Source of the DNA: an uncultured delta proteobacterium
Lineage (GTDB): Bacteria; RBG-13-61-14; DRUE01
Direction: 5' to 3'
NCBI GenBank assembly: GCA_903930515.1
Contig: CAIYYW010000386.1
Span: forward strand, 1 to 22,162
Length of the DNA: 22,162 bases
Shown here: positions 19,551 through 22,162 of the stretch, piece by piece
Numbering within the stretch: position 1 is the first letter of the stretch
Layout: the number at the start of each line of letters is the position of its first letter
Position numbers and translations under genes: made by a program
The notes under the pieces: generated by a model
The model's database searches: none
Told to the model about the DNA's origin: nothing
Seen by the model: only the letters and a program-made list of their open reading frames with translations

Positions 19551-20774
19551 ATGGCAAAGGTAGTTGTGTTGGGAGGATCAGGCGCGGTCGGGAGCGTGGC
19601 GGTAAAGACCCTGTCCGGCCAGGATCATTTTTCCGAGATCGTGATCGCGGACATCAATTTAGCCAAGGCCCGGCAGGTCGCTTCCGGCCTGAAAGGCAAG
19701 AAGGTTATTGCGAAAAAAGTGGATGTGCTGGACCAGAAAAAACTGATCGCCGCGATCAAGGGAAGCGATGTGGTTTTGAATTGCACCGGCCCGTTTTACA
19801 AATTCGCGGTCCCAGCGCTCAAGGCGGTGCTCAAGGCGAAGGTCAATTATGTGGACATCAATGACGATGTGGATGTGACGATGGAAGTTTTGGAAATGGA
19901 CGCCGAGGCCAAAAGGGCAGGGGTGAAAGCCCTGATCGGGATGGGCAGTTCCCCAGGCGCCACCAATATCATCGCCAAGATGGCCGCGACCAATCTTTTG
20001 GATGAGACCGACTCCATTGACATCTTCCACGCCCACGGCGGAGAGCCGATTGAAGGGGAGGGCGTGATCGGGCACCGGTTCCATTGTATGAGCATAGACA
20101 TCCCGATGTTCCTGGACCGCAAGCTCACCTATGTGAAATATTTTGAAGGGGACGGAATTTCGCTCCGGGAAAATTTTGTTTTCCCGATTTTGGGCAAGGT
20201 CTTGCTCTATCCCTACCCGCATCCGGAGCAGGTCACGCTCCCGAAATATATCAAGTGCAACCGCGTGACCAACAAGGGATCGGTCCTGCCCGAGCCTTAT
20301 TACAACCTGATCCGGGACCTCTGCCAGCTCGGCCTGACCGGGAAGGAGCCGGTGAAGGTGAAAGGGAAAAAAGTTGTGCCTTACGATTTCGCGATGGCCT
20401 TTATCCTCCGAGAGCGCGAGCGGATTCTGAAAGAGACCAGGTTCGGCCACCAGCGCGGATGCGTGAGCGTGGTGGTGAAAGGGAAAAAGGACGGCAAATA
20501 CCGCGAGTACCGCGCCCACCTCGCGTCTGAGAGCCAGGCCCTGGGGGAAGGAACCGGCATCCCGGCTGCGATCGGAACGCTTCTGATGCAGGAAGGCAAG
20601 GTGGCCGGACCCGGGGTGTTGCCGCCCGAAGCCTGTCTCAACCCGATGGACTTCCTGGCCCTGGTGCCCAAGGTGATGAAGCTGGACCAGAAAAAAGAAG
20701 GCGGCAAATCCTTCGGCGGAATCATTGTGGAGCAGGTGGATGAGAATGGGATCATCAAGAAACTGGACATTTAG
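19551..20774 (+). CDS. Saccharopine dehydrogenase family oxidoreductase
   Basis: 407 aa. GAGGAGG lies about 6 nt before ATG 19551. The N-terminal NAD(P) fold has the GxxGxxG loop at GGSGAVGS (8-15), the acidic strand end VIADINLAKA near 31-40, and DVVLNCTGPFYKFAVPALKA, typical of the Sacchrp_dh_NADP domain. GVKALIGMGSSPGATN begins the catalytic half and VLPPEACLNPMDF is the usual C-terminal phrase of the group. The family includes saccharopine reductases, lysine dehydrogenases and carboxynorspermidine synthases; the actual substrate here is unknown, and this stand-alone form is often of unproven role. The last 144 bp are repeated 833 bp downstream behind a toxin-antitoxin-like pair. The gene itself appears intact. 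Confidence 0.88.
   Translation: MAKVVVLGGSGAVGSVAVKTLSGQDHFSEIVIADINLAKARQVASGLKGKKVIAKKVDVLDQKKLIAAIKGSDVVLNCTGPFYKFAVPALKAVLKAKVNYVDINDDVDVTMEVLEMDAEAKRAGVKALIGMGSSPGATNIIAKMAATNLLDETDSIDIFHAHGGEPIEGEGVIGHRFHCMSIDIPMFLDRKLTYVKYFEGDGISLRENFVFPILGKVLLYPYPHPEQVTLPKYIKCNRVTNKGSVLPEPYYNLIRDLCQLGLTGKEPVKVKGKKVVPYDFAMAFILRERERILKETRFGHQRGCVSVVVKGKKDGKYREYRAHLASESQALGEGTGIPAAIGTLLMQEGKVAGPGVLPPEACLNPMDFLALVPKVMKLDQKKEGGKSFGGIIVEQVDENGIIKKLDI
20631..20774 (+). repeat. Direct repeat copy 1 (3' end of dehydrogenase gene)
   Basis: This segment aligns without gaps to 21464-21607. I count 18 mismatches in 144 positions (87.5% identity). The central 20647-20744 has a single mismatch; the differences cluster at both ends. 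The repeats bracket the DUF4258/zinc-finger gene pair. Confidence 0.9.
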
Positions 20775-20800
20775 CAAGTCTTAGGTGTAAAATTGCCAAG

Positions 20801-20820
20801 GACGCAAAGGAAATTTTGTT
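20801..20820 (+). repeat. Short GCAAAGGA-type motif shared with the region after repeat copy 2
   Basis: GACGCAAAGGAAATTTTGTT here resembles AGCGCGAAGGAATTTTATTC at 21621-21640. Both lie shortly after the two stop codons, so the similarity extends past the coding repeat, with about 13 nt fewer in copy 2. It partly precedes the ribosome site of the DUF4258 gene. Confidence 0.45.
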
Positions 20821-20835
20821 ATAAGGAGATTTGAG

Positions 20836-21162
20836 TTGCCAAGCCGTCTTGATCTGGAGGCAATGAGGTTTGCGGTTCGGCGGGCCCGGATTGAATGGCA
20901 GAGGCATGCGCTGGAAAGAATGGCGGAGCGTGGTATATTTAGAGATGAAGTAAAGCAAGTCCTGCTCCGGGGAGAGCGGATTGAGGACTATGCGGAAGAT
21001 CAGCCGTTCCCCGGCGCGCTGTTCTTGGGCAGGCCCAAGGGCCGTGCTTTGCATGTGGTGGCGGCATTCAACGCTGAGCGCATTATGGTTTTCATCATCA
21101 CGGCCTATGAGCCGGAGTTGACTCGTTTTGAGCCGGACCTGAGAACTCGGAGGAGGAAATGA
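20836..21162 (+). CDS. DUF4258 domain protein, probable toxin of a toxin-antitoxin-like pair
   Basis: 108 aa from TTG 20836, preferred because AAGGAG (20823-20828) lies 7 nt upstream; an internal ATG at 20863 has no ribosome site. The sequence fits the compact alpha/beta DUF4258 family: QRHALERMAERGI near 22-34 (H24, R28, R32), EVKQVLLRGERIEDY, a central beta region with HVVAAFN, and the ending VFIITAYEPELTRFEPD. The fold is thought related to RelE/HigB/BrnT-like toxins, and members are often encoded next to small antitoxin-like genes; toxicity of this protein is not shown. Its TGA overlaps the next gene's ATG as ATGA, the usual close coupling of such pairs. It could instead be a harmless small-domain remnant. 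Confidence 0.8.
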   Translation: MPSRLDLEAMRFAVRRARIEWQRHALERMAERGIFRDEVKQVLLRGERIEDYAEDQPFPGALFLGRPKGRALHVVAAFNAERIMVFIITAYEPELTRFEPDLRTRRRK

Positions 21163-21398
21163 CCCAGAAAAAAGGAAAAGACCTTTGCCCCTTTTGCCGG
21201 GGGTTGAAGAAGCCCGGGACCACTACCTTTACCGCGGAGCTTGGCTTTGGGGTTGTGGTTGTGAGATATGTGCCGGCCTCGGTCTGCTCCCAATGCGGCG
21301 CCGACTGGATCAGCGACAAGACCGCGGCAAAGCTGGAAGCCCTGGTGAAGGACGCCAAAATCAAAAAGCTGGAAGTGGAAGTAACCGCGCTCGGCTGA
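21159..21398 (+). CDS. YgiT/MqsA-type zinc-finger protein, probable antitoxin
   Basis: 79 aa; AGGAGGAA lies just before ATG 21159, inside the end of the DUF4258 gene. Two CxxC knuckles, C10/C13 (LCPFC) and C43/C46 (VCSQCG), flank a beta hairpin with the RYVPASVC phrase. This is the zinc domain of MqsA/YgiT antitoxins. The C-terminus is a Lys-rich helix; the HTH domain of E. coli MqsA, which binds DNA, is absent, so self-repression by this protein alone is uncertain. Many short YgiT-type proteins of this length are partners of DUF4258 proteins. Toxin-first order, as seen here, is also that of mqsRA. Function as a neutralising partner is inferred. Confidence 0.82.
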   Translation: MTQKKGKDLCPFCRGLKKPGTTTFTAELGFGVVVVRYVPASVCSQCGADWISDKTAAKLEALVKDAKIKKLEVEVTALG

Positions 21399-21463
21399 CT
21401 CCCGCGAGAGGCATTACCCTCGATTCGGGGCGCAAATGCTCTTGCTCTGCGATGACCTCTAAA

Positions 21464-21607
21464 GCCCGCCTCAATCCCCTGGACTTCCTGGCCCTGGTGC
21501 CCAAGGTGATGAAGCTGGACCAGAAAAAGGAAGGCGGCAAATCCTTCGGCGGAATCATTGTGGAGCAGGTGGATGAGCACGGAGTGGTGAAGAAGTTGGA
21601 TATTTGA
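21464..21607 (+). pseudogene. Duplicated 3' fragment of the saccharopine-dehydrogenase-like gene (repeat copy 2)
   Basis: It encodes the last 47 residues of a near-identical protein in frame to its own TGA: RLNPLDF instead of CLNPMDF, and EHGVVKKLDI instead of ENGIIKKLDI. Changes are mostly synonymous or conservative, as expected for the end of a once-functional paralogue or orthologue rather than a decaying copy. The upstream part of the gene is absent. An ATG at 21452 would give a 51-residue reading, but no ribosome site precedes it. The 65 nt between the zinc-finger gene and this fragment show no other feature. Confidence 0.85.
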
Positions 21608-21724
21608 TTTCACCGCAAAGAGCGCGAAGGAATTTTATTCGCGGTCAAATCACAAGTTTAAAATTTAGACCTGAGCCCCTTCACCACATGACTCCTTCAC
21701 CATAAAAGCGGGAGTATAATACCA
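21608..21724. other. Intergenic, AT-rich transition
   Basis: No gene seen. It holds the GCGAAGGA-type motif noted above, a 9-bp direct repeat CCTTCACCA (21678-21686 and 21694-21702) and a TATAAT at 21715-21720 with no plus-strand gene after it. No terminator is evident. Confidence 0.4.
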
Positions 21725-22135
21725 TCAATATAATTGCACCCATTTGCCATAAGGATCTTTTGTAATATTGAGTTCATCATGGTACCCTGCAAAGGAAGAT
21801 TGAACGCCCGTATCCCGACGGTTATTAGACTGAAGACAGGTGCCGGCTATCGAATATCTTACGGGCCAATAGCTCACCCCAAGTACCTCTTGATGTTCAC
21901 CGAATTTTAAATCTGTTATTGATATTTGATTTATCTTACAAGAATTCCCATGTGGTATTGATGGCGTAAATTGAAAATCCCTACCCAAACTATTAAACGG
22001 GAGGCCAATACAGATAGATCGAACTATTTCCTCAATTTGTTGCTTAGAAGGTTTTGATTGGCAGCCAAGAAAAAATTCCATACTCAGGCAGAGCGCCAAT
22101 AGCAATAACATTTTTGAAAGCGGCTTGTATTTCAT
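21725..22135 (-). CDS. Hypothetical small lipoprotein
   Basis: 136 aa. AAAGGAG lies 8 nt before ATG 22135, an excellent site. The signal is KYKPLSK plus a Leu-rich core and lipobox FLGC with C25 as the lipid-bearing residue. The mature part has Cys42, Cys66 and Cys99 (approximate positions), which might form a disulfide, and no recognised domain. Base composition is unlike the rest: seven 60-nt rows from 21721 to 22140 total 166 G or C of 420 (about 40%), against about 55-57% in the genes to the left. This fits recent acquisition. It converges with the dehydrogenase/toxin-antitoxin segment. Function unknown. Confidence 0.75.
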   Translation of the reverse strand: MKYKPLSKMLLLLALCLSMEFFLGCQSKPSKQQIEEIVRSICIGLPFNSLGRDFQFTPSIPHGNSCKINQISITDLKFGEHQEVLGVSYWPVRYSIAGTCLQSNNRRDTGVQSSFAGYHDELNITKDPYGKWVQLY

Positions 22136-22162
22136 TTGGTCTTCTCCTTTTTAAATTTTTTA

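Follow-up and report, generated by a model that had tools for sequence, protein, structure and literature searches.

A DUF4258-YgiT toxin-antitoxin-like pair between two copies of a host gene's 3' end suggests entry at gene ends with target duplication

Toxin-antitoxin (TA) pairs found alone in chromosomes are very mobile, and the movement of two-gene units that carry no transposase is rarely visible. Here we describe a DUF4258 gene and a YgiT-type gene, a predicted TA pair, which lie between the intact 3' end of a saccharopine-dehydrogenase-like gene and a second, in-frame copy of that end with its own stop codon. The scar can be seen here: beyond the pair lies a duplicated end of the host gene. 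Related cassettes in unrelated bacteria likewise lie between copies taken from their own neighbouring genes, and this suggests that such cassettes enter genomes with a target duplication. Our preferred explanation, which we consider probable though well short of certain, is that a minimal TA cassette enters at gene ends and produces a long target duplication. If this is true, sequence alone is enough to trace and test the movement of such TA pairs, and they would share one insertion mode with restriction-modification systems.

The locus lies in a stretch of 22,162 nucleotides that was analysed as a whole and is called the window here. The host gene (19551..20774, plus strand) is intact and encodes a protein of 407 aa that matches PF03435 (E 3e-21) and PF16653 (E 4e-9). 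The position of the gene end is common to its orthologues, which are up to 70% identical. The 3' end of this gene, with the stop codon TAG, forms copy A (20629..20774). It is followed on the same strand by the DUF4258 gene (20836..21162, start codon TTG, PF14076 E 8e-22), a predicted toxin gene of the RelE/ParE superfamily, and by the YgiT-type zinc-finger gene (21159..21398, TIGR03831 E 1.7e-9), a predicted antitoxin gene that corresponds to the N-terminal domain of MqsA only. These two small genes of known TA families overlap by the stop/start sequence ATGA at 21159-21162, and both profile matches are above the cut-off. Copy B (21462..21607, plus strand) is the second gene end, in frame and with the stop codon TGA. 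An earlier sequence-only reading had reported this arrangement and a direct repeat of 144 bp with a period of 833 bp, and both were confirmed. Behind copy B, at 21700-22162, the G+C content drops from about 55% to 38%, and an unassigned, lipoprotein-like open reading frame (ORF) on the minus strand (21725-22135) reaches toward the contig end.

The direct repeat comprises 20629-20772 and 21462-21605. It spans 144 nt, 126 of which are identical (about 89%), and blastn between the two flanks of the pair gives an E-value of about 1e-51. Copy A covers the last 48 codons of the host gene; copy B (21464-21607) keeps their reading frame and contains no indel. The stop codon is kept in both copies and its type differs. 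Copy B itself lacks a plausible start; in the ORF list it appears only as the tail of an ORF with a TTG start (21185-21607) that crosses the YgiT gene in a different frame. The 18 differences between the copies are distributed over the codon positions as 6/1/11, and 8 of the 13 changed codons are synonymous. The differences are clustered at both ends of the repeat, with 1 of 32 codons changed in the middle versus 12 of 16 in the outer parts (scan p about 1e-5 under a uniform null). The window comes from a draft metagenome assembly of 401 contigs, which would allow for an assembly error. However, a misassembly by plain sequence duplication is unlikely at this locus: 18 of 144 sites (11%), synonymous sites among them, differ between the copies, and the longest identical run is 49 bp.

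An 18-bp motif, GCAAAGGACGCRAAGGAA, is found behind both stop codons. It has exactly two matches in the 22 kb window, where 0.06 are expected. The first (20795..20812, plus strand) starts 20 bp past stop A and the second (21615..21632, plus strand) starts 7 bp past stop B. Because the motif occurs behind both stops and nowhere else in the window, the duplication probably extends past the stop codon. The duplicated block would then probably measure about 170-185 bp, made up of about 145 bp of coding sequence and about 25-40 bp past the stop. The region behind the stops aligns weakly between the copies, and 15 of 2000 shuffles aligned equally well. The motif is dispersed in the genome, with 12 matches to its core pattern versus 0 for the reversed control. 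Motifs related to GCAAAGGACGCRAAGGAA are also present on both sides of two further pairs, L149 and L158.

The 0.69 kb between the copies hold the DUF4258 and YgiT genes only, and no integrase or transposase is visible, as the earlier reading had stated. A genomic island with its own integrase was rejected because this interval contains no integrase gene, and a composite transposon was rejected because the flanking repeats are a gene end and not an insertion sequence. DUF4258 is a listed toxin family of the RelE/ParE superfamily whose activity is unknown; a RelE-like (BECR) fold has been ascribed to DUF4258 toxins, and DUF4258-MqsA fusions exist (PMC11980606). A sequence search for a solved relative of DUF4258 found none, and the structure model of the window protein (pLDDT 49.5) is too poor to judge the fold. 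The family profile of the antitoxin matches 3ga8, the N-terminal zinc domain of Escherichia coli MqsA, with an E-value of 3e-7. At 79 aa, the YgiT-type protein is too short to contain the helix-turn-helix of MqsA. No RNA families or tRNAs were found near the pair, and PADLOC gave no match at the locus. Other vehicles were considered and rejected. Neither the dehydrogenase nor the window toxin has relatives in viral contigs, no relatives of this toxin were found in phages, and the toxin of another pair (L118) has one very weak match in viral contigs. Carriage by plasmids was set aside, with just two weak plasmid matches. Recent copying of the cassette within one genome was also rejected, as no copies are near-identical; the window's genome contains a single gene of each of the two families, DUF4258 and YgiT. 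Between different pairs, DNA similarity is limited to the two genes.

The two copies might be what remains of a tandem paralogue: the pair would once have stood between two full dehydrogenase genes, of which the second was later lost for the most part. The preserved frame and stop in both copies and the partly synonymous differences fit such a history. Public genomes were scanned for the dehydrogenase. Of the 77 loci obtained, 74 show 48-70% identity, and none of the 77 has a second full or partial dehydrogenase copy nearby or a DUF4258-YgiT pair. The 3' end is included in 72 orthologous loci (two from a whole-genome search), and 64 of these have at least 1.5 kb of sequence behind it. All 72 have a single gene end and no pair. 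Two full tandem dehydrogenase genes in relatives, named beforehand as the result that would speak for an ordinary decayed paralogue, occur in none of the 72, and the window's own genome has no dehydrogenase paralogue. Together, the single ends and the missing paralogue speak strongly against the tandem-paralogue reading, and the single gene end is likely the ancestral state. Decay of a paralogue would also require the same loss repeatedly, since other pairs show the same layout with unrelated genes, and we regard it as very improbable. At this locus, distant relatives have one end and no pair; the closest of them known is G002, which belongs to another family of the same order and has one end followed by different sequence.

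The layout recurs around other pairs. In a survey of several hundred further genomes, 124 distinct DUF4258 units were collected, 95 of them with a YgiT gene behind; all surveyed loci are from draft assemblies, most of them fragmented. A pair was counted as bracketed when blastn (E<=1e-10) between its 900-bp flanks found a direct repeat that lies no more than 200 bp from the pair on each side. By this rule 13 of the 95 DUF4258-YgiT pairs are bracketed (12 of 94 without the window), and none of the 29 DUF4258 units that lack YgiT. Among controls treated in the same way, brackets were found for 0 of 299 similarly sized genes from the dehydrogenase loci and for 1 of 211 genes on the contigs of the pairs. 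The excess over all controls is significant (Fisher 1.2e-9), as is that over the same-contig controls alone (4e-6). A second sample, drawn from other groups, yielded only one new bracket, which means that the frequency of brackets depends on the group. For BrnT pairs, which represent another TA family, 1 of 30 was bracketed (37 bp, under a looser rule), and these are too few for a comparison.

Copies of a neighbouring gene form the bracket in 6 of the 13 cases. Besides the window these are L118, L124, L162, L148, and L152, so that the proposed search for other pairs flanked by neighbour-gene copies returned five more, four with 3' ends and one with a 5' end. L118 has a copied 3' end of an epimerase-type gene, and its copy B contains an internal stop. 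In L124 the 3' end of an O-methyltransferase-type gene is copied, on the other side and strand, and 8 of 13 changed codons are synonymous. In L162 the copy is of the 3' end of a YegS-like kinase gene (88 bp, 80% identity; 9 of 18 changed codons synonymous). In L148 the last codons of a small ribbon-helix-helix-type gene are copied together with the sequence behind them. L152 has a copied 5' end of a nucleotidyltransferase-type gene, with 95 bp identical. The copies are identical in L152 and 80-93% identical in the other gene-copy cases, the repeats measure about 45-146 bp, and in each of the six the copies enclose a unit of 590-690 bp. The remaining seven brackets (L143, L149, L158, L161, L169, L182, and L235) are intergenic, dispersed, or unclear.

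Some of these brackets bear on another explanation, namely that the window layout is an assembly artefact or a chance combination of dispersed repeats around the pair. The motif behind both copies is dispersed, and the brackets of L149, L158, and L161 are dispersed repeats. Against this, gene-end copies are found in five other genomes. Dispersed repeats were rejected as a general cause, as two motif families bracket only 3 of the 95 pairs. We consider artefact or chance a most improbable origin of the window layout.

In a tree of toxin and antitoxin, the window pair forms a clade with L118, L124, L152, L112, and L244 (SH-aLRT 98), and the six members come from six different families. Gene-copy cases make up 4 of 6 pairs inside the clade versus 2 of 88 outside (Fisher 7e-5, or 7e-4 without the window), in a test that was devised after the tree had been seen. 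The contig of L112 is packed with small TA-like genes and long repeats.

The clearest empty site is at the level of gene order and concerns the L162 pair of G001, a genome of the same genus as the window's genome (G000). In G001 the order is YegS-like gene end, DUF4258, YgiT, second end, a small gene pair, and a D-aminoacyl-tRNA deacylase gene. In G000 the YegS-like orthologue (75% identity) has a single end and is directly followed by the same deacylase gene. The small genes ahead of the deacylase gene in G001 (L162:1480-2470) encode 147 aa and about 123 aa; the second appears RelE-like by eye, with no Pfam match. G000 lacks both this gene pair and the DUF4258-YgiT pair. An empty site for L118 was sought in a congener, which has no orthologue there. 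In the family of L124, one orthologue has a single end and no pair, and the region behind it is not comparable. The earlier proposal that an element had entered the 3' end of a gene is thus supported by relatives with a single end, by recurrence with different genes, and by the empty site in one congener.

Under the preferred explanation, the cassette would be a unit of about 0.65 kb that consists of a ribosome-binding region, the predicted DUF4258 toxin gene, and the predicted YgiT antitoxin gene. It would have settled immediately downstream of a metabolic gene's 3' end, and the event would have left a long target duplication, with the intact host gene on one side and an inert gene end on the other. 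For the window locus we infer that the pair was inserted, and not that a gene end was copied behind an existing pair. Addiction to the toxin could then fix the cassette, while the flanking homology would permit RecA-type recombination, conversion, deletion, or re-insertion. The second end would have been either made at insertion or brought along with the cassette from a related species. Under both versions the cassette inserts at a gene boundary, is flanked on each side by long homology to the target, and has no transposase.

The version in which the second end was brought in, a strict form of the earlier reading's model, is possible, though on balance we think it unlikely. Here a cassette that carried a gene end would have recombined with the single end of the recipient, either ends-in or by one crossover with a circular form, and two reciprocal hybrid ends would result. 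The codon patterns and the mosaic of differences hint at such a donor. The differences in the window, L124, and L162 are rich in synonymous changes, the stop type is changed and a stop is still kept in three cases (two of which are double changes), and the window repeat, with its differing ends and near-identical middle, resembles a conversion tract. Additionally, the single YegS-like end of G000 matches copy A of L162 almost throughout and agrees with copy B only at scattered sites and in the last codon. On the other hand, no donor is known, and the synonymous excess is explained in part by drift of copy B with constrained change of copy A. Duplication at insertion followed by drift of copy B fits the identical copies of L152 and the internal stop in copy B of L118. 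When the window copies were polarised with orthologues, no clear switch was seen, and copy B carries an Arg in place of the Cys of the best orthologues, which suggests decay. Spread by homologous recombination at gene ends, as had been proposed from the window alone, is possible and would fit the mosaic and synonymous differences. A further and rather speculative idea is that the two-gene TA cassettes of one clade are a self-sufficient mobile unit with no need of a transposase or integrase. They would carry or create a copy of the target end and use homologous recombination at conserved gene ends to pass from one species to another; each insertion would leave the host gene intact and rebuild the flanking homology for the next move.

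The 3' ends of genes are classic sites of genomic islands. The pair might therefore have been integrated site-specifically at the gene 3' end by an integrase supplied from elsewhere, with the repeats as attachment sites. The partial copy is on the far side, where a displaced end is expected. However, no integrase was recognised beside the pair, the target gene is different for each pair, and L152 copies a 5' end. The repeats are also longer and more diverged than usual attachment cores. We judge this explanation to be highly unlikely. The likeness to islands at gene 3' ends is in the intact host gene on one side and the partial end on the other; the window differs from them in the absence of a visible integrase, the very small cargo, and the change of target from copy to copy.

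Several known systems resemble the preferred reading of a cassette that enters at gene ends. Insertion of restriction-modification genes with target duplications of about 100 bp is described in two articles, where it is credited to Nobusato 2000 and Furuta 2010 (PMC3874152, PMC3031569). The similarity lies in a selfish poison-antidote unit that has no transposase, is flanked by target-copy repeats of about 100 bp, and has an empty site in a relative. The present unit differs in being a TA pair of 0.65 kb whose target is mostly a gene 3' end; most of its copies have diverged (80-93%), and here a duplication at insertion is only proposed. MNT-HEPN and other mobile two-gene modules similarly occupy a locus in one strain that is vacant in a relative, whereas the accessible portion of that account describes no duplicated gene end (PMC2701414). 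The DUF4258-MqsA (YgiT) modules share the protein families and the toxin-first gene order (PMC11980606). They differ from the window in that the accounts found mention no flanking copies of neighbour genes, and the window antitoxin consists of the zinc domain alone, unlike MqsA with its helix-turn-helix. In the open literature we found no report of a flanking gene-copy layout for TA pairs; the subscription literature lay mostly outside the search.

Further arrangements were seen at individual loci. In L148:1347-2783 (pair orientation) a third copy of the repeat follows after about 0.7 kb, as though the site had received two insertions. In L182:687-2290 (pair orientation) the pair is preceded by another YgiT-like gene and by a duplicate of a terminator-like sequence, an arrangement that represents a tandem TA duplication. 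The nucleotidyltransferase-type gene in L152:2005-2901 continues in one frame into a match to an IS1-type transposase, which places an insertion sequence less than 1 kb from the L152 pair. Finally, L303:1-7676 contains small TA-like genes (two DUF4258, PIN-like, and others, by eye) between long direct repeats, one of which is 174 bp at 89% identity.
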